From a virus: 64,000 nucleotides of DNA. Made by a program: the position numbers and the translations under genes. Under the pieces are notes generated by a model that was given only the letters and a program-made list of their open reading frames with translations, had not been told where the DNA came from and ran no database searches. Below, in pieces: positions 5,794-15,955 of the stretch (positions are counted from its first letter, which is position 1; every line of letters starts with the position of its first letter). Location of the stretch: IMG/VR virus record IMGVR_UViG_3300009161_000028, positions 1-64,000 of that record, one strand, 5' to 3'.

Positions 5794-6471
5794 ATGTCAG
5801 ATCTAATTAGCCAGCGCATTCGTCAGCGTTTAGTGACAAGCGGCGATCGTTTCTTTGCAAACGATAACATTAGTCAACATATTGAAGAGGGCGAGCTAGA
5901 CTTGCTTATAGACGAAGTTACCACGCAAATGACCGGAGTACTTAACTCTCTGGTTATTGATATCGAACACGATCACAACACTCAGGATACTGCACGTCGT
6001 GTTGCTAAGATGTTCCTCAAGGAAACATTTGGTGGACGTTATGCTCCGGCTCCACGTATTACCAGCTTCCCAAACATGGGATACAAGAGCTTGTACTCTA
6101 GTGGCCCAATCAGTATTCGAAGCACTTGCGCACATCACTTTCAAAACATTGTAGGTCGTGCATGGGTTGGTATTGTACCCGAAGGGGAAGTTATTGGTCT
6201 AAGCAAGTTCAATCGTATTGTGCATCATATTGCGGAACGTCCACAGATTCAGGAAGAGATGACTACACAGATTGCTAATGCACTTAGCGAGTATGCAAAG
6301 ACTCCAAACGTTGCAGTAGTAGTCAAAGCAGAACATCACTGCATGACACATCGTGGTGTTCGTGAACACGAAAACGACATGGTAACTGCAATCATGCTAG
6401 GCGCGTTTAATACTGATGCAGCACTTAAGAAGGAATTTTATGACATCCTCAAACTCAATTCCAACCGTTGA
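5794..6471 (+). CDS. folE: GTP cyclohydrolase I (FolE)
   Basis: Converts GTP to dihydroneopterin triphosphate, the first step of both folate and 7-deazaguanine synthesis. The family signature is complete: the zinc-binding segment STCAHHF (Cys112, His115), VIGLSKFNRIVHHIAERPQ (134-152) and AEHHCMTHRG with the second zinc Cys183. At 225 residues it matches the usual length. It starts 1 bp after the glycosyltransferase stop with GGAAAATAAAATG. With DpdA, QueE and QueD-like proteins nearby, a role in DNA modification is much more likely than in folate supply. Confidence 0.95.
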   Translation: MSDLISQRIRQRLVTSGDRFFANDNISQHIEEGELDLLIDEVTTQMTGVLNSLVIDIEHDHNTQDTARRVAKMFLKETFGGRYAPAPRITSFPNMGYKSLYSSGPISIRSTCAHHFQNIVGRAWVGIVPEGEVIGLSKFNRIVHHIAERPQIQEEMTTQIANALSEYAKTPNVAVVVKAEHHCMTHRGVREHENDMVTAIMLGAFNTDAALKKEFYDILKLNSNR

Positions 6472-7548: not shown

Positions 7549-8523
7549 ATGAAAACAATTTTTATCACAGGCGGTTGCGGCTTTATTGGCAGCAACTTCC
7601 TACTGCATTGGGCGCAGAATTATCCAGACTGGCGTTTGGTCAATTTGGACATAATGAGCTATGCTGCTAATATAGATAATGTTGCAGAGCTCGAACATCA
7701 TCCCAATTATATATTCCTCAAAGACGATATCAATCATGTAACTATGAACAAGAAGGTTCTATGCTACTTTGAACCAGATTATATCGTACATTTTGCTGCT
7801 GAAAGTCACGTAGACCGATCCATTGAAAGTAGTGGACCATTTGTTAAACATAATGTAATGGGCACTGTTAACTTTCTAGATAGTGTACGTTTTTACATGA
7901 GAAAGGTAAGCAAAGAATTTCGATTCCTGCATGTAAGTACAGACGAAGTTTTTGGGTCTTTACGTGAACATGATGAACCATTTAATGAACTAAGTCAGTA
8001 TGCTCCTAATAGTCCATACAGTGCTAGCAAAGCAGCTAGTGATCACTTTGTGCGTTCGTACTATCAAACACACAATGTTCCTGCAATGATTAGTAACTGT
8101 AGTAATAACTATGGACCAAGACAGAACAAGGAAAAGTTTATTCCTACTGTTATACGCCATGCGCTAGCAGACAAACCAATTCCTGTATACGGCAATGGTA
8201 TGAACATACGCGACTGGCTATGGGTAGATGATCATTGCACTGCACTAGAAACACTACTACTGCATGGTAATCTAGGCGAACAATACTGCATTGGCGGCGA
8301 TAATGAAGTTAATAATATTGACCTTGCCACGCGCATACTTGAGATCATGGGCAAGTCCAAAAGCCTAATCAGTTATGTTACTGATCGAGCAGGGCACGAC
8401 TTTAGGTATGCGATAGATAGTAGCAAGCTACAATCATTAGGTTGGCAAGCTAACATGAGTTTTACACAGGGACTCGAGCGTACCGTTGATTGGTACTTAC
8501 AACGACCAGAAAGGTTTCAATAA
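7549..8523 (+). CDS. rmlB: dTDP-glucose 4,6-dehydratase (RmlB)
   Basis: Second enzyme of dTDP-L-rhamnose synthesis, an NAD-dependent extended SDR. Visible features are the Rossmann motif TGGCGFIG (7-14), the substrate motif VSTDEVFG with the Thr-Asp-Glu catalytic set (131-133), the Tyr-x3-Lys pair YSASK (157-161), and GNGMNIRDWLWVDDH, typical of RmlB. At 324 residues it is slightly shorter than bacterial RmlB (about 350). It heads an unbroken rmlB-A-C-D run with overlapping junctions, so the pathway is expected to be expressed as a unit. Confidence 0.95.
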   Translation: MKTIFITGGCGFIGSNFLLHWAQNYPDWRLVNLDIMSYAANIDNVAELEHHPNYIFLKDDINHVTMNKKVLCYFEPDYIVHFAAESHVDRSIESSGPFVKHNVMGTVNFLDSVRFYMRKVSKEFRFLHVSTDEVFGSLREHDEPFNELSQYAPNSPYSASKAASDHFVRSYYQTHNVPAMISNCSNNYGPRQNKEKFIPTVIRHALADKPIPVYGNGMNIRDWLWVDDHCTALETLLLHGNLGEQYCIGGDNEVNNIDLATRILEIMGKSKSLISYVTDRAGHDFRYAIDSSKLQSLGWQANMSFTQGLERTVDWYLQRPERFQ

Positions 8524-9410
8524 TGGATAGAAAAACACTGGGCATTATTCTTGCCGCGGGCAAGAGTTCACGTCTTTTCCCTGCAACACTAGCATGTACT
8601 AAACAGGTAGTACCTGTATACGACAAGCCACTGATCTACTATGCACTAACTACACTAATTACTGCAGGTATTAGGGACGTTGTACTAATCACAAACCCAG
8701 ACGAGCAAACAGTATTTAAAAAATTGTTCGAGGGTGCAGGGCAACAGTTTGGCATTAACTTGCATTTTGCAGTACAGCCAAAGCCACGTGGTATTGCACA
8801 AGCATTTACTATTGTAGCAGACCAAATCGATGGATATGATCAATTTGAACGTATTGCATTGATACTTGGAGACAATCTATTCCATGGGTCAAAGTTTGAT
8901 ATAGCATTGCAGTTAGCACGAGCTGCAAAGAATGCAGTATGCTTCGCCATGCATGTACAGGATCCAGAACGATTTGGCGTAGTAGAATTAGATGATCATG
9001 GTCGTGTGCTTTCTTTGGAAGAAAAGCCAAAGGAACCAAAGAGCGACCTCGCAGTAACTGGATTGTATTTCTATCCAACGTCCATATTTGAAATTGCTGC
9101 TAACTTAAAACCATCCGATCGAGGCGAGTTTGAAATTACCGATGTTAACAAAGAGTATGCCAATCGCGAAGAACTGTTTGTAACAATTCTAGACGAAGGT
9201 ACTGTTTGGTTTGACACGGGTAATGCACCATCGCTCTTGCAAGCTGCTGAATATGTACATATAATGCAGACTACGCAGAATGTACTAATAGGCTCTCCAC
9301 ATTTGGCTGCATTCAAAAATGAATGGATATTACACGAAGACCTAGCAGTTACTGCTAAACTATGCGACAAGACCCCTTACGGACAATACCTATGGAAACT
9401 AATTCGATGA
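8523..9410 (+). CDS. rmlA: Glucose-1-phosphate thymidylyltransferase (RmlA)
   Basis: First enzyme of dTDP-L-rhamnose synthesis: dTTP plus glucose-1-phosphate gives dTDP-glucose. The nucleotidyltransferase signature is GIILAAGKSSRLFPAT with KQVVPVYDKPLIYYAL. The metal Asp region is LILGDNLFHG and the sugar-binding segment is FGVVELDDHGRVLSLEEKPKEP. ATG 8523 forms a TAATG overlap with rmlB and gives 295 residues, the usual RmlA length. The frame stays open upstream to 8490 but that start would intrude on rmlB. Confidence 0.95.
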   Translation: MDRKTLGIILAAGKSSRLFPATLACTKQVVPVYDKPLIYYALTTLITAGIRDVVLITNPDEQTVFKKLFEGAGQQFGINLHFAVQPKPRGIAQAFTIVADQIDGYDQFERIALILGDNLFHGSKFDIALQLARAAKNAVCFAMHVQDPERFGVVELDDHGRVLSLEEKPKEPKSDLAVTGLYFYPTSIFEIAANLKPSDRGEFEITDVNKEYANREELFVTILDEGTVWFDTGNAPSLLQAAEYVHIMQTTQNVLIGSPHLAAFKNEWILHEDLAVTAKLCDKTPYGQYLWKLIR

Positions 9411-9967
9411 ATGAAAAAACTTACGAAATGTTTGAAAATCTCAACGACCTACGCCTGTATCAGTTTAAGAACTTTGCAGACAATCGTGGATCATTTCAAG
9501 AAACATATAATCATTCGTGGTTTGGTTGGGAAAAAGAGTTTGAAGTACTGCAGCAAAACACTTCATATAACAAGAAGTATGTGCTACGTGGATTGCATTA
9601 CCAGCTAAAGAATCCACAGGGTAAGCTAGTAAGTGTGATTCAAGGTAGTGCAGTTGACTTTGTTATTGACCTGCGTAAGGATTCACCAACCTATCTAAAC
9701 ACTGGTATCTTTGAACTTAGTACGGAGAATCTCAATTATCTCTATGTGCCGCCCGGATACGCGCATGGCTTCCTTGCGCTAGAAGACAACACTATTTTTA
9801 ACTATGGTGTCACTAAGAGCTTATGGCAGAAGGACGACGAGTATTGCATCAACTTTTGGAGTGTTGACGAGTTTACAAGTTATCTACTTCCAATGCGTAA
9901 TCAGATAATTCAAGCTGATAAGGACCGCACGGGCATTGATGTTACGCAGGCAGTACATTATGGGTGA
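9407..9967 (+). CDS. rmlC: dTDP-4-dehydrorhamnose 3,5-epimerase (RmlC)
   Basis: Third step of the rhamnose pathway, a cupin epimerase. Conserved parts are FADNRGSFQETYNH, QQNTSYNKKYVLRGLHYQ (with the catalytic His of RGLHYQ) and YVPPGYAHGFLAL. ATG 9407 gives an ATGA overlap with rmlA and 186 residues, a normal RmlC size. In-frame starts at 9362 and 9392 are further inside rmlA and less likely. Confidence 0.93.
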   Translation: MNEKTYEMFENLNDLRLYQFKNFADNRGSFQETYNHSWFGWEKEFEVLQQNTSYNKKYVLRGLHYQLKNPQGKLVSVIQGSAVDFVIDLRKDSPTYLNTGIFELSTENLNYLYVPPGYAHGFLALEDNTIFNYGVTKSLWQKDDEYCINFWSVDEFTSYLLPMRNQIIQADKDRTGIDVTQAVHYG

Positions 9968-10811
9968 CCGTGTACTAATCTTTGGTGCAACTGGTCAAGT
10001 AGGCACTAGTCTACAAAAGTTTGCACCTAGTGATTATGAAATCATTGCGCATGATAGATCCAAATTTGATCTTGTGGACTCGCCTGCAGTTGAACGTTTT
10101 GTTCGTGCAGTTGCCCCTAAATACGTAATCAATGCTGCTGCATATACTGACGTAGACGGCTCCGAAGATGTGATGAATAGGCATCTTTGCTGGCATGCTA
10201 ATGTTCAATTTCCTGCACAGCTTGCACGGCTCAGTAATAACATGGGCTTTCATCTAGTACATTATTCTACTGATTATGTGTTTGACGGTTTTACTGATTT
10301 AACCGGAAAGTATGTTGAACAGTCGGATAAGAATCCCGTAAACTTTTATGGGAGCAGCAAGTCTGATGGCGAAGAAGAAGTGATGTCATATACCACCTCC
10401 TATACCATCTATCGAGTATCTGCAGTATATTCTACAAGTAATAAGAACTTTCATACTGCAATACTATGTGCGGCTGCAACTAAGGATAGAATAGAAGTAG
10501 TTAATGATCAATTCACCGTTCCAACTAGTAGTGATTGGATTGCAAGGAAGACATGGGAACGTTTGAAGTTGGACCGCGGGCTCAATCATCTTGTACCGCG
10601 AGCAAATTACGGCGATAGCTTTTATGAATTTGCAAAGTGCATTAAACTAGCGTATAATCTGTCTACAGAAATTGTACCTAGCAAACTAGCTAACCTAAAT
10701 AAACCAGCAAAGCGTCCACTCAATACACAAATGACCAGTACCAATATATTGCAATCCGAGTCCTGGCAGGAAGTATATGAAAAATTCCTAATAGAGAACA
10801 ACTTACCATGA
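9960..10811 (+). CDS. rmlD: dTDP-4-dehydrorhamnose reductase (RmlD)
   Basis: Final step to dTDP-L-rhamnose, an NAD(P)H-dependent SDR. The cofactor motif is LIFGATGQVG. INAAAYTDVDGSED and VHYSTDYVFDGF (with the catalytic Ser/Thr region) follow, and YGSSKSDGE contains the Tyr-x3-Lys pair. The start is ATG 9960 inside the rmlC stop region (8-bp overlap); upstream Met codons at 9936 and 9939 are in frame but unnecessary. 283 residues, as expected. Its stop overlaps the queE start (ATGA). Confidence 0.93.
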   Translation: MGDRVLIFGATGQVGTSLQKFAPSDYEIIAHDRSKFDLVDSPAVERFVRAVAPKYVINAAAYTDVDGSEDVMNRHLCWHANVQFPAQLARLSNNMGFHLVHYSTDYVFDGFTDLTGKYVEQSDKNPVNFYGSSKSDGEEEVMSYTTSYTIYRVSAVYSTSNKNFHTAILCAAATKDRIEVVNDQFTVPTSSDWIARKTWERLKLDRGLNHLVPRANYGDSFYEFAKCIKLAYNLSTEIVPSKLANLNKPAKRPLNTQMTSTNILQSESWQEVYEKFLIENNLP

Positions 10812-11674
10812 GCAAGATTAAAACAGCAGAAATCTTTTACAGCATACAAGGTGAAGGACGTTGGGCAGGTGTGCCCAGTGTGTTCTTCCGTACATTTGGA
10901 TGTAACTTCCAGTGTAGAGGATTTGGCTTACCGCTTGGTGAACGCAGCGATGAGCCCGAACGTATTGCTAATCAACTTAGCAAGTACGATAGTTATGATT
11001 CTTTGCCGCTTGCACCAACTGGATGTGATAGTTATGCAAGTTGGCATCCTAAATTTAAGAAGTTTAGCCCCACACTAACTATTGACGAAATTGCAAAACG
11101 TTTTGTGGACATTATTCCTAATGGCAAGTGGACACAGGATAACGGACGAGACATTCATTTGGTTATCACTGGCGGAGAACCACTGCTAGGATGGCAAAAG
11201 AGCTATATACAATTATTGCAACACCCATTGCTTGCAGACCTAAAGAATGTCACGTTTGAAACAAACACTACGCAAAAGATCACCAAGGAGTTGGCTACGT
11301 TTTTTGAGACGCAAAGTAACATCCACGTTACGTGGAGTTGCAGTCCCAAACTATCAATCAGTGGTGAAGCTTGGGAAGAGGCTATACAACCTGACATTGC
11401 TAGAAGTTATTATAATATGGTGTCTGGCGGTGGGAGCAGTTTTTATCTCAAGTTTGTGGTTAGTAATATGCATGATCTTGATGATGTTCGTCGTGCTGTT
11501 AGCCTTTATCAAGCTGCTGGTGTACATTGTCCGGTCTATCTAATGCCGGTTGGTGGCACTGTGGATTCATACTTCCTTAATGCACGTCAGGTAGCAGAAC
11601 TTGCCATGCAGGAAGGTTGGTGGTATAGCCCACGACTACAATGTGACTTGTTTAAGAATGCATGGGGTACTTGA
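10808..11674 (+). CDS. queE: 7-carboxy-7-deazaguanine synthase (QueE), radical SAM
   Basis: Converts 6-carboxytetrahydropterin to 7-carboxy-7-deazaguanine (CDG). The N-terminal YSIQGEGRWAGVPSVFFR is the QueE substrate-binding signature. The cluster cysteines appear as Cys32 and Cys36 (FGCNFQC), with the third probably Cys73 in TGCDSYASWHP after an insertion of 36 residues. The usual motif is much more compact. The radical SAM GGEP motif is in VITGGEPLLGW. At 288 residues it is longer than many bacterial QueE proteins (about 220). It is coupled to rmlD by an ATGA overlap. No queC is found in the window, so the pathway either ends at CDG or continues with a gene elsewhere. Confidence 0.9.
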   Translation: MSKIKTAEIFYSIQGEGRWAGVPSVFFRTFGCNFQCRGFGLPLGERSDEPERIANQLSKYDSYDSLPLAPTGCDSYASWHPKFKKFSPTLTIDEIAKRFVDIIPNGKWTQDNGRDIHLVITGGEPLLGWQKSYIQLLQHPLLADLKNVTFETNTTQKITKELATFFETQSNIHVTWSCSPKLSISGEAWEEAIQPDIARSYYNMVSGGGSSFYLKFVVSNMHDLDDVRRAVSLYQAAGVHCPVYLMPVGGTVDSYFLNARQVAELAMQEGWWYSPRLQCDLFKNAWGT

Positions 11675-11925: not shown

Positions 11926-11983
11926 AGAGTCGTTCGCTAAATATCTCAAGAGGATAAAAGAAAATGGCACGAAAGAAGACTAG
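11792..11983 (+). CDS. Hypothetical protein, 63 aa, overlapping frame
   Basis: ATG 11792 lies 11 bp after GAGGAG (11775-11780); a TTG at 11786 is the alternative start. The product is basic and Trp-rich at the N-terminus (LDRLTSRWKSLWQQ) with a charged helical end (EESFAKYLKRIKENGTKED). It overlaps the preceding frame by 134 bp and the following gene by 20 bp. Composition and ribosome site favour a real gene, but there is no homology support. Confidence 0.5.
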   Translation: MLDRLTSRWKSLWQQNTTPKPTKLESGHSWMMKQRFGTELDTVSEESFAKYLKRIKENGTKED

Positions 11984-12326
11984 TGTAGCGCAAGGGGAAG
12001 AGAACACTCCCGCACCAAAAAAGAAGCGTGTACTATCACCTAAGGATCAAGCCACAAAGAAAGGCGAGCCCTGGGTTGATGTTAAGATGCATGTTGATCC
12101 AGATCAGCCACACAACGGTTACTTTGAACTAGATTGGAATGCTGCTTTCATTGACAAACTAAAAGTAGAAGGATATACCGGTGAAACAGACGGTGATATC
12201 ATGGACCAATATGTTAAAGCATTATGTACGTTTGTTGCAGGCGAAAACGACGAATACGTTGATGCACTAGCTAAACCTAAGATTAACAAGCGAGCAAACG
12301 ACGACGGAACAGCAGAATACTTTTAA
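11964..12326 (+). CDS. Hypothetical protein, 120 aa
   Basis: The N-terminal 35 residues are basic and disordered (ARKKTSVAQGEENTPAPKKK); the rest is acidic and compact (GYFELDWNAAFIDKLKVEGY, TDGDIMDQYVKALCTFVAGE). The ribosome site AAGAGG lies upstream of ATG 11964. Similar small proteins seem common in marine T4-like phages, but I know no function. Its stop overlaps by 4 bp the stop of the leftward bilin reductase gene, so two convergent transcripts meet here without a visible terminator hairpin. Confidence 0.75.
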   Translation: MARKKTSVAQGEENTPAPKKKRVLSPKDQATKKGEPWVDVKMHVDPDQPHNGYFELDWNAAFIDKLKVEGYTGETDGDIMDQYVKALCTFVAGENDEYVDALAKPKINKRANDDGTAEYF

Positions 12327-12994
12327 AGTTCCGGAAACATTAGGTGTTCGAAAAACTCTGTGACTTGGTCCGGCGTAAGACCCAATATATTCATAGTCCG
12401 TGGAGTATGTGGATTCCGCTTTTGGTTTATACAGTAATTATTTTGTTCGTGATAACTGTCCTTGTGATCGTTTCTCTGACGGCCTACATGCTCTAAATAG
12501 TACTCCAAACATTCAACACCAAGTCCTGTTAACTGATCAACTTCCTGTTCGTCAGTTATTGCACCTGCGGCTACCATTGCAGGACTAAAGATAGCAGCAG
12601 CCCAGTCTGGCAGTTGACGCTCTTTCTTCCAATTTAAGTTTGTCACACGTTGGTCAAACCATTTCATCATTGAATGGTCATTAACGCCTGCAAAAGAGAA
12701 GTCTAGAAATGCTCCACTAATGCGACTAGGACCGCTAATAATGTCAAAACCAAAAATAGGACTATTATCATTTACGTGGGGAAATATGCAACAGTGCATG
12801 ATCCATAATTTGTGTGTCTCTCTTGCATCGATGATGTCAACGTGGGCACGGCGTACACGGTCAGACGAGTGTATATAACTGTGCCAACCAAAAGTAGTAG
12901 GAGGATTACTAGGATGATCAACTGCTGGGCCAATGCCCTGCAATAATTGCACGACTCTATCGCCACAAGCTTCAGCCTTTTGCCATATGTCCAC
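12323..12994 (-). CDS. Ferredoxin-dependent bilin reductase, PcyX/PebS-like
   Basis: Reduces biliverdin, made by the heme oxygenase upstream, to an open-chain phycobilin using electrons from ferredoxin. 223 residues with the phage FDBR pattern: HSYIHSSDRVRRAHVDIIDA (38-57), LWIMHCCIFPH (63-73), SPIFGFDIISG (78-88, with the central Asp84) and RISGAFLDFSF. It ends with the Gln-rich helix and NPHTPRTM (194-201) and a LFPxx-type terminus (MFPEL). This arrangement resembles PebS of cyanophages and PcyX from uncultured ocean phages more than cyanobacterial PcyA or PebA. Product specificity cannot be settled by eye. The start is GTG, 23 bp inside the end of the heme oxygenase gene, so the two are coupled. 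No ferredoxin gene lies in the window. Confidence 0.88.
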   Translation of the reverse strand: MDIWQKAEACGDRVVQLLQGIGPAVDHPSNPPTTFGWHSYIHSSDRVRRAHVDIIDARETHKLWIMHCCIFPHVNDNSPIFGFDIISGPSRISGAFLDFSFAGVNDHSMMKWFDQRVTNLNWKKERQLPDWAAAIFSPAMVAAGAITDEQEVDQLTGLGVECLEYYLEHVGRQRNDHKDSYHEQNNYCINQKRNPHTPRTMNILGLTPDQVTEFFEHLMFPEL

Positions 12995-13526
12995 TAGTCA
13001 ATGCCTCATTGTACTCGTTCATAATACGTATTGCCCAATCAAATGCGCAGTTAGCTTCATTGGCCATGCCATCATGCAACTTAACTCGGATGTTTGCTTT
13101 GAGCAAGTCAGGATTATCAAAATCTAAATTACGATGCGACACATGATCCATAATCTGCTTAATCATCTGCCCGCCATATAAGTCGCCCATGTGCCATACA
13201 TACAAGTGGGCCATGATGGCATCAACATCAACTAAATCCATAATGTATGTGTAGTAGCGCATGGTGCTAACAGTGTAGAAGTGATTGGGAACTTTACACA
13301 TAGCTCTGTAATCCTGATACAGTAGATATGTACGTTCGAGCCCCGGAAGGTCTTCCAATAGACCTGCAGCTCTTGCTCGCATTTCGATAGCATTGTACCA
13401 ATGCATCTTGTTTAGGGTATAGTCTGCCCAAATTTCAACGGGCATTGTGCGTTTGAACACTGACTGCATAAATGGCGTATGTTCCGCAGCAGTATGTTTG
13501 TCTTTGGTAAGTTCTTTTAGGCTCAT
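12972..13526 (-). CDS. ho1: Heme oxygenase (biliverdin-forming)
   Basis: Opens heme to biliverdin IX alpha, releasing Fe and CO. 184 residues, about 50 shorter than cyanobacterial HO1 but similar to my recollection of phage versions. The N-terminal KDKHTAAEH carries the proximal heme ligand His11 in the HTxAE context. The distal helix reads HLYVWHMGDLYGGQMIKQ, with Gly114, Asp115 and GGQ 118-120 matching the GDLSGGQ signature. It is the first gene of a leftward two-gene unit with the bilin reductase and faces the DUF454 gene across a 38-bp gap. The strand is opposite to all neighbours, which suggests acquisition as a cassette with its own control. Confidence 0.92.
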   Translation of the reverse strand: MSLKELTKDKHTAAEHTPFMQSVFKRTMPVEIWADYTLNKMHWYNAIEMRARAAGLLEDLPGLERTYLLYQDYRAMCKVPNHFYTVSTMRYYTYIMDLVDVDAIMAHLYVWHMGDLYGGQMIKQIMDHVSHRNLDFDNPDLLKANIRVKLHDGMANEANCAFDWAIRIMNEYNEALTSGHMAKG

Positions 13527-13564: not shown

Positions 13565-13984
13565 ATGGACAAGATCAAGAAGGCATTGTTTTTCGTTGCA
13601 GGCATGATATGCTTGGGTATTGCGTATATTGGTATGGTTACTCCCGGTATTCCCTGGAGTACACCAACAATCATAGCAGCATATTGCTTTGCTAAGAGCA
13701 GCGATAAATGGCACAATTGGATGATGAATCACAAGCTGTTTGGCCCGTTTCTTACAAACTGGAAAGACAAAAAAGTTTATCCAAGCAAGGCCAAATGGAT
13801 CATGTTCATTTGCATGGATGCAAGTTTGGTTATACTTTGGCTTACTACCCACAACTGGAAATTGGTTATGGGCGTAAGTGCATTCATGGCGTTCTGGATG
13901 ATTTGGGCAATACGCTATCCAGGCAGTCTCGCAGAATGGCAACGTCGTGTCGCTGCTGGTGAGAAGATTGGATGGTTTAAGTAA
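13565..13984 (+). CDS. DUF454 (YbaN-like) membrane protein
   Basis: 139 residues with three or four hydrophobic segments (about 8-30, 32-45, 77-93 and 98-115). The family pattern is clear: GMVTPGIPWSTPTIIAAYCFAKSS, then a His-Trp segment (WHNWMMNHKLFGPFLTNW). YbaN proteins are small inner-membrane proteins of unknown function. My recollection, not checkable here, is that they often sit beside heme uptake or heme oxygenase genes in bacteria, and here the gene is divergent from a heme oxygenase with a 38-bp spacer. The ribosome site AGAGGA precedes ATG 13565. A role in heme or iron handling at the membrane is inference. Confidence 0.85.
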   Translation: MDKIKKALFFVAGMICLGIAYIGMVTPGIPWSTPTIIAAYCFAKSSDKWHNWMMNHKLFGPFLTNWKDKKVYPSKAKWIMFICMDASLVILWLTTHNWKLVMGVSAFMAFWMIWAIRYPGSLAEWQRRVAAGEKIGWFK

Positions 13985-14027: not shown

Positions 14028-14055
14028 GTCTATACACTAATTATGTTTGGACATT

Positions 14056-15012
14056 ATGAAATATCTACTAGTCGATACCGCTAATACTTTTAGTCGTGCT
14101 CGGTTCGTAGCTCAAGGTGATGATCTTGAGATGCGTACCAGCATGGCACTACATATCTTACTCAGTTCCGTAAAGCGAGCGCAGGAACTATTCTCAGCAG
14201 ATCGTGTGGTATACTGCCTCGAGGGGCGCAGTTGGCGCAAGGATGTATACGCCAAGTACAAGAAGAATCGCACAGACGCACGAGGCGCACAAACTCCTCG
14301 CGAACAAGAAGAGGACAAGGCTTTCTGGGACAAGCTAGATGAATTCAGTAAGTTCCTACAAGAGCGTAGTGGTGCACTAGTACTACGTCATTCGCAGTGT
14401 GAAGCTGACGATTTTATTGCGAGATGGACGCAACTGCATCCCGAAGACGAACACATTATTTGTAGCAGCGACCGCGACTTCTATCAGTTAGTTACGGATA
14501 ATGTAAAGATTTTCAACGGCATTAGTAAAGAAATTATCTCAAAGGACGGTATCACAGATGACAAGTTTAAGCCAGTCATTGACAAGAAAACTAGCGAGCC
14601 TAAAGTGTTGGGTGATCCTGAATGGCTACTTTTTGAGAAGTGTATGCGAGGGGATTCTAGCGATAATGTGTTTAGTGCTTTTCCTCGCGTTCGCAAGACT
14701 CAACTTCTAGAAGCTTTTACTGACCGTAAGGATCGTGGCTTCAAGTGGAACAATCTTATGCTACAGCGTTGGGTTGATCACGAGGAAGTTGAGCATCGTG
14801 TGATTGAAGATTACGAGCGTAATCGGCACCTAATTGATCTTACTGCACAACCAGACTGGATCAAAACAGAACTAGATAATACAATCACAGTTGCAAAAGC
14901 TGCTATAATGCCACGAGCACAAGCAGGCGCATACTTTATGAAGTTTTGTGGATTGCACGGGCTCGATAATATTAGTCAAAGCGCACACGCATATATGGAG
15001 ATTTTCAAATGA
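14056..15012 (+). CDS. rnh: RNase H / 5'-3' exonuclease (T4 rnh-like, FEN family)
   Basis: Probable flap endonuclease-type nuclease that removes RNA primers from lagging-strand fragments. 318 residues (T4 RNase H has 305). The family aspartates are visible: LLVDTANTFSRARF near the start, YKKNRTDARG with the helical-arch basic residues, CEADDFIARW, CSSDRDFYQLV and RGDSSDNVFSAFPRV, the last matching the GDxxDN metal site and helix-hairpin-helix entry. ATG 14056 is chosen over TTG 14047. Its stop is coupled to the next gene by an ATGA overlap. Confidence 0.9.
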   Translation: MKYLLVDTANTFSRARFVAQGDDLEMRTSMALHILLSSVKRAQELFSADRVVYCLEGRSWRKDVYAKYKKNRTDARGAQTPREQEEDKAFWDKLDEFSKFLQERSGALVLRHSQCEADDFIARWTQLHPEDEHIICSSDRDFYQLVTDNVKIFNGISKEIISKDGITDDKFKPVIDKKTSEPKVLGDPEWLLFEKCMRGDSSDNVFSAFPRVRKTQLLEAFTDRKDRGFKWNNLMLQRWVDHEEVEHRVIEDYERNRHLIDLTAQPDWIKTELDNTITVAKAAIMPRAQAGAYFMKFCGLHGLDNISQSAHAYMEIFK

Positions 15013-15479: not shown

Positions 15480-15710
15480 ATGTTTAATCCTGCTAATTTA
15501 CGAGAATTTGTAGCCACTGTAAGTGCCGCGGAACGAAGTAATAAAAAAGAAGTTCGGTTTAGCACCGATGTTGCCCGTCGCATGGCAGACGATCTTACAT
15601 ATCTTATGCTTCAGCTAACGCAGAGTCAAGAGCAGAATATTAAACTGCAAGAACAAGTGACCACTAGCTTGGTCACTGAAGTAGAATTACAAGGTGGAAA
15701 ATTTACATGA
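15480..15710 (+). CDS. Small coiled-coil protein, 76 aa
   Basis: Helical and Gln/Glu-rich; LTYLMLQLTQSQEQNIKLQEQV (two stretches around residues 39-60) has heptad spacing suggestive of a coiled coil. No family recognised. It starts at ATG 15480, 12 bp after the previous stop, and ends in an ATGA overlap with the glutaredoxin gene, so it may be co-translated with it. Confidence 0.7.
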   Translation: MFNPANLREFVATVSAAERSNKKEVRFSTDVARRMADDLTYLMLQLTQSQEQNIKLQEQVTTSLVTEVELQGGKFT

Positions 15711-15955
15711 ACATTAAGGTATATTCAAAGACCAATTGCCCATATTGCGTTAGTGCTAAGAACTGGCTCAAGCAAAGGGGTTATGCATACGAAGAAATCG
15801 TAATAGATAACGACAGCGAACGTCAGAAGTTTTACGAAAGCGTAGGTAATGGTGTGCGCACCGTTCCGCAGATCTATGTAGATGGTGAACGTATTGGTGG
15901 ATTCCAAGACCTAATCAAAAGCCATCTGGCGACCAACTTGAATGCAGATTTTTGA
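15707..15955 (+). CDS. nrdC: Glutaredoxin
   Basis: 82-residue thioredoxin-fold redox protein with the active site NCPYCVSAK (Cys12, Cys15), the cis-Pro motif RTVPQIYVDG and the GGFQDL glutathione-site end, all typical of class I glutaredoxins. In T4-like phages such proteins feed electrons to the phage ribonucleotide reductase, though no nrd genes lie in this window. The symbol is by analogy with T4. Confidence 0.93.
   Translation: MNIKVYSKTNCPYCVSAKNWLKQRGYAYEEIVIDNDSERQKFYESVGNGVRTVPQIYVDGERIGGFQDLIKSHLATNLNADF

Follow-up and report, generated by a model that had tools for sequence, protein, structure and literature searches.

What use could a phage of a probably non-photosynthetic host make of genes for degrading heme and reducing the resulting bilin? 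The question is raised by two overlapping leftward genes in the 64,000-nt stretch of DNA analysed here (positions 1 to 64,000 of the IMG/VR record IMGVR_UViG_3300009161_000028; hereafter the window). The pairing of heme oxygenase with PcyX is already known in marine and freshwater phages (PMC11480375; phage Mosig), and what hemO and bilin reductase genes do for phages that infect heterotrophs has been described as "still enigmatic" (PMC11480375). An earlier note on this DNA had read the pair as coupled genes leading from heme to a reduced bilin, and had suggested a bilin use outside light harvesting.

The heme oxygenase and bilin reductase genes

The pair consists of the following genes.

12972-13526, minus strand: heme oxygenase (HO), 184 aa, Pfam Heme_oxygenase (PF01126), upstream gene of the leftward pair
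12323-12994, minus strand: bilin reductase (FDBR), 223 aa, GTG start within the end of HO, Pfam Fe_bilin_red (PF05996), PcyX clade

The end of HO overlaps the start of FDBR by 23 bp. Both open reading frames are present in the span 12323-13526 named by the earlier note, Pfam and PDB matches confirmed their families, and the signatures that it had reported as intact were all recovered. In the profile search, HO scored 48 bits against the Heme_oxygenase cut-off of 23 (E 1.5e-12), and among PDB sequences it matched HmuO (1iw0, E 1.9e-8). It carries HTAAE (proximal His11, Glu15) and GDLYGGQ (Gly114-Gln120), with the proximal His11 and the distal Gly-Asp-(x2)-Gly-Gly of PF01126 (Gly114, Asp115, Gly118, Gly119) in place. 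Position 117 is Tyr whereas its HmuO equivalent is Ser, and this column varies freely across 116 relatives.

FDBR scored 62 bits against the Fe_bilin_red cut-off of 31 (E 6.9e-17), and its top match among PDB sequences was PcyX_EBK42635 (5owg, E 3.9e-45). The AlphaFold model of FDBR, built from an alignment of 13 sequences, has a pLDDT of 89, and the top PDB folds found with Foldseek are PcyA (2g18, E 1.7e-12) and PcyX (5owg, E 2.3e-12). The central catalytic Asp of the family, equivalent to Asp105 of PcyA, is Asp84 within FGFDII, and the protein ends with NPHTPR. Across 123 FDBR relatives, His67, Asp84 and Asp56 never vary. Asp53 and Asp84 align with Asp55 and Asp86 of PcyX (the 5owg chain is offset by about 8 residues, judging from its numbering), and His67 aligns with His88 of PcyA. 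Taken together, HO and FDBR constitute a complete phage cassette for heme degradation and bilin reduction, of the HO-PcyX kind and with predicted activity.

The earlier note had left the reductase as PcyX/PebS-type, and had proposed that it be placed in a phylogeny. In the tree, FDBR falls within the bilin reductases, in one clade with PcyX_5owg and the reductase of phage Mosig (support 100/99), apart from PcyA, PebS, PebA and PebB; the references for these four were of cyanophage and cyanobacterial origin, and a search of 385 genomes for alphaproteobacterial PcyA gave no PcyA-like match that could serve as a further reference. The residues point in the same direction. The column of PcyA Glu76 holds Asp in FDBR, and that of PcyA His88 holds His67, which is, however, common to PcyX. 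FDBR does not group with cyanophage PebS, the rows of which carry Asn instead of His at column 67. The sequence evidence thus supports a PcyX-type reductase, and the PebS part of the earlier assignment falls away. Since the enzyme of the freshwater phage CB_2, which lacks the Asp55 of PcyX, makes PCB (PMC11480375), and the window enzyme has Asp53, phycoerythrobilin (PEB), formed by four-electron reduction of biliverdin, is predicted as the most likely product.

Position 53 varies in a graded manner across a tree of 131 rows. The deepest group (eight rows, the long row L085 being set aside) has Glu at this column; L085, which stands outside the operon linkage described below, also has Glu. In the group of the window (SH-aLRT 88) the residue is Asp, Ser, Cys or Asn, and in nearly all remaining rows it is Asp. 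Natural homologues include L024 (Glu), L023 (Ser), L030 (Cys) and L225 (Asn). This natural residue series provides ready-made enzymes for studying what determines whether PCB or PEB is made.

Gene neighbourhood in the window and in related phages

The 109-kb record of the window is contained, at 99.99% identity, in the IMG/VR contig G001 (265,892 bases), a T4-like myovirus by its gp23, gp20 and terminase. Megablast of the first 25 kb of the window against isolate phages gave no match. The pair is surrounded by the following features.

11964-12326, plus strand: virion-protein-like ORF (PHROG 13349), left border of the block; homologue at 146480-146968 of the related contig G003
13527-13564: divergent intergenic gap of 38 bp between HO and the DUF454 gene
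13565-13984, plus strand: DUF454 (ybaN family) membrane protein by profile match, facing HO directly
14047-15012, plus strand: 5'-3' exonuclease, right border of the block; homologue at G003 147634-148620

HO and FDBR are the only leftward genes within 1-24.7 kb of the window, and many structural genes beyond 24.7 kb are leftward as well; the earlier observation that the pair stands opposite to all neighbours is therefore correct for the first part of the window but not for the rest. Nor is the orientation an oddity, because FDBR is divergent from DUF454 in 26 of 28 related loci among the matches listed. Sigma-70 and T4-late promoter motifs for the leftward pair did not exceed chance in the 38-bp gap, and a promoter of its own for HO-FDBR was rejected on this ground.

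In G003, a 230-kb relative having about 100 ORFs in common with G001, the homologues of the two border ORFs are adjacent but for one unrelated methyltransferase-like gene, and 5 kb separate DUF454 from HO-FDBR, which is on the opposite strand. Hsp20 and ClpS of G001, identified by Pfam (L010:18541-19284, minus strand; rc 186609-187352), are separated from HO-FDBR by about 164 kb and stand alone behind a gene that looks ClpX-like by eye (together rc 185032-187352). The simplest reading is that FDBR, HO and DUF454 moved as one block, which would represent a relocated remnant. Elsewhere in the window are found a GTP cyclohydrolase gene (5794-6471, PHROG 2197), a run of genes resembling dTDP-sugar genes (7549-10811), and an ORF that appears QueE-like (radical SAM) by eye and has no Pfam match (10808-11674).

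The cassette is not rare in IMG/VR, where one scan gave at least 456 related loci and a second at least 592. Among the matches listed for the scan nearest the window (79 loci), HO is present in 78, ClpS in 71, Hsp20 in 70 and DnaK in 60. The usual gene order is DnaK-Hsp20-ClpS-HO-FDBR on a single strand, and Pfam confirmed Hsp20, ClpS and DnaK in examples. When near copies were removed at 90% identity, at least 2.6 kb of upstream sequence was required and loci fetched by ClpS were left out, HO was found in 91 and ClpS upstream in 55 of the 93 FDBR loci among the matches listed. The HO and FDBR reading frames overlap at 99 of 119 loci, and the overlap of ClpS with HO is exactly 4 bp at 49 of 74 dereplicated loci (both among the matches listed); the recurrence of these overlaps argues for translational coupling. 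Among phage DUF454 loci of more than 12 kb, half (27 of 54 among the matches listed) have Hsp20, ClpS and HO/FDBR within 9 kb. All these neighbourhood counts are samples of relatives and not a census. In the window, HO does not directly follow ClpS, and the divergent DUF454 neighbour is present.

The linkage of phage ClpS, HO and FDBR, usually with Hsp20, often with DnaK and in many phages with a divergent DUF454, is new. No paper joining ClpS, Hsp20, phage and heme oxygenase was found in a search of the text of open-access papers, and the text of PMC11480375 does not mention ClpS, Hsp20 or DnaK.

Mapped on the 131-row tree, ClpS linkage is found throughout the deepest group (eight rows) and in the whole group of the window except for the window itself. 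Many relatives lack it too, among them Mosig and the characterised PcyX, which means that HO-FDBR can function without an adjoining ClpS. As judged from the tree, the linkage probably dates from early on and has been lost repeatedly, one of the losses being in the lineage that contains Mosig and the characterised PcyX.

The linkage might have arisen with no joint function, if auxiliary metabolic genes gather at a T4-like Hsp20-ClpS locus where HO-FDBR merely rides. Phages lacking FDBR carry, after ClpS, an exonuclease, a metallophosphatase, or FTR1 or SbmA together with Nfu and an FeS-assembly protein; pmoC adjoins HSP20 in six phages (PMC7674155); and HO-FDBR of the window's phage has moved away without ClpS. 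However, the exact 4-bp ClpS/HO overlap speaks against such a hot spot, as does the presence of the ClpS linkage in the two deepest branches of appreciable size in the PcyX tree. In addition, HO-FDBR is by far the commonest cargo of the spot, being present at 47 of 80 phage ClpS loci among the matches listed. We therefore regard a passive hot spot as possible but rather unlikely. Our AmoC search for a pmoC/methanotroph link gave no match, but its controls likewise gave none, so that the result does not speak against such a link.

Several variants were seen among the relatives. ClpS-bearing IMG/VR contigs without FDBR (L143, L155, L177, L181 and L189) again carry iron genes, with an FTR1 iron permease or SbmA/BacA directly behind ClpS, followed by Nfu/NifU and an FeS-assembly protein. 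In some operons HO and FDBR are separated by an additional gene, encoding isocitrate lyase (L060), a carbon-nitrogen hydrolase (L104, L105) or a protein with no recognised family (L086); AlaS was considered for this gene and rejected in all four. A small FDBR group (L067-L070) has no detectable HO beside the reductase, and an AlaS gene is found elsewhere on the contigs behind L068 and L069. Six MAG contigs of GTDB matched FDBR, and the phage-type operon is present in several of them. The phage-type order Hsp20-ClpS-HO-FDBR occurs in L101-L105, which are labelled Neomarinimicrobiota, Pirellulales, Halobacteroidaceae and Rickettsiales, and the GTDB contigs probably represent phage DNA mis-binned as bacterial.

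Host and possible role of the cassette

The earlier note had found no photosystem or ferredoxin gene in the window and had asked for psbA or petF elsewhere in the genome. The whole 266-kb G001 contig, which is possibly incomplete, contains no psbA (PF00124), no photosystem genes and no Fer2 ferredoxin, and psbA is missing in all 34 phage records searched (G001 and 33 further FDBR- or ClpS-bearing ones). G001 encodes more than 20 tRNAs, a freshwater-2 RNA and a permuted tmRNA, for which beta_tmRNA is the best Rfam model within its clan (124.5 bits against a cut-off of 84). The relevant features outside the window are as follows.

G001, L010:10642-11015, minus strand: permuted tmRNA, tag ANDSNYDMALAA
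G003, L127:4515-4845: permuted tmRNA, tag ASNDSIFALAA
G001, L007:1550-3769, minus strand: ClpA-like ATPase by Pfam

Because the tmRNA of G001 is of betaproteobacterial type, a cyanobacterial host is unlikely. From this one tmRNA model and the missing photosynthesis genes, the host is likely a non-photosynthetic freshwater betaproteobacterium. The non-cyanobacterial host suggested by the earlier note thus gains support, also from a cultured relative infecting Pelagibacter, and a bilin use outside light harvesting is therefore likely. G001 also encodes a 255-aa protein with a signal-like start, seven CXXCH motifs and a Pfam Cytochrome_C7 match (L008:9559-10326, minus strand, outside the window), a phage-encoded multiheme c-type cytochrome.

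Among the uses named earlier, iron release from heme fits best with the neighbourhood of DUF454 and ClpS/Hsp20. The DUF454 gene ybaN of E. coli is a direct Fur target (PMC7157518; PMC10164565), and a DUF454 gene of Avibacterium is upregulated under iron restriction (PMC7970244). A point against the iron reading is that iron release alone needs no FDBR. In our view the chances are about even that, in the virocell of a non-photosynthetic host, the cassette disposes of heme and releases its iron in connection with proteostasis. HO would cleave heme, yielding biliverdin IXalpha, CO and iron(II); FDBR, with a host ferredoxin as donor, would carry out a four-electron reduction of biliverdin, the likeliest phycobilin product being phycoerythrobilin. 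Hsp20/DnaK and ClpS would deal with unfolding host proteins, including heme proteins and perhaps the Clp substrate GluTR, while HO would free iron during host takeover and FDBR would drain biliverdin. The Clp substrates of Salmonella and of chloroplasts include GluTR, which is bound by ClpS1 (PMC7966870). In keeping with this reading, G001 encodes, besides Hsp20 and ClpS, its own ClpA-like ATPase, a ferritin-domain protein and a peroxiredoxin. In the window's phage, FDBR-HO-DUF454 might work as a compact divergent unit away from Hsp20-ClpS.

Somewhat more tentatively, phage HO-PcyX may at its root be a heme/iron-turnover and proteostasis module (DUF454 / DnaK-Hsp20-ClpS-HO-FDBR) of large phages of non-photosynthetic hosts, not a light-harvesting one. 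Given the graded change at FDBR position 53, the window's group could record a shift from PCB-type to PEB-type chemistry.

A redox or antioxidant role, in which pro-oxidant heme is turned into reduced bilins that scavenge oxidants and use up excess ferredoxin electrons during infection, seems improbable. G001 encodes a peroxiredoxin, a ferritin-domain protein and a glutaredoxin (window 15707-15955), and the cassette neighbours in relatives are stress proteins; however, the redox genes of the window's phage are not beside the cassette, the glutaredoxin lying 2.2 kb off in a separate operon.

The supply of a chromophore to a host phytochrome or another host bilin protein appears very improbable, although the phage PcyA of CB_2 makes PCB that assembles with the phytochrome Cph1, and hemO-pcyA is paired with bphP on a Bradyrhizobium island (PMC11480375). 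Against it, 19 phage records including G001 contain no PHY domain and no convincing phycobiliprotein, and Asp53 predicts PEB over PCB. The sole PF00502 phycobiliprotein match above threshold is 65 columns long, lies within a structural ORF of 2477 aa in G003, and was taken as chance. Phytochromes carrying PEB are not known to be photoactive. The phytochrome signalling proposed earlier thus finds no support in the phage genome, and a host phytochrome is possible. Finally, cyanophages do carry PcyA and PebS, but an ordinary cyanophage light-harvesting gene is scarcely credible here and was rejected, given the missing psbA, the tree position in a different clade from cyanophage PcyA/PebS, and the beta-type tmRNA.

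For the preferred reading, heme and iron turnover linked to proteostasis, the conserved and apparently translationally coupled ClpS/small heat-shock arrangement, together with a divergent gene of a Fur-regulated family, provides a concrete genetic clue and a hypothesis that can be tested.

Comparison with known systems

PcyX_EBK42635 (5owg), a PEB synthase from a marine metagenomic phage, resembles the window FDBR in its clade, the Asp pair and His67, and is likewise paired with HO in phages; however, the two are about 40% identical, and PcyX_EBK42635 belongs to another, derived part of the PcyX clade. Pelagibacter phage Mosig EXVC030M (MT647606) has HO followed by an overlapping FDBR, lacks psbA and infects a heterotroph, as is likely for the window's phage. 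The two Mosig proteins share 40% and 30% identity with those of the window, the neighbours of its hemO-FDBR are ferrochelatase, 2OG-Fe(II) oxygenases and neck genes, and Mosig encodes a Fer2 ferredoxin whereas G001 does not.

The vHemO/vPcyA pair of CB_2 (PMC11480375) is likewise an HO and FDBR pair of a freshwater phage. Besides the difference at position 53 described above, CB_2 has valaS, whereas G001 gave no AlaS (TIGR01821) match, and the valaS of the three-gene cassette hemO-pcyA/X-valaS is thus missing. Cyanophage PebS and PcyA belong to the same phage-borne FDBR family but to other clades, with Asn at the position of His67 in PebS and Glu at position 53 in PcyA. A further likeness is to the Hsp20-ClpS-HO-FDBR operons (L022, L023, L030, L103 and others), whose HO, FDBR, Hsp20, ClpS and DUF454 all have homologues in G001; unlike in those phages, Hsp20-ClpS of the window's phage stands about 164 kb from HO-FDBR.
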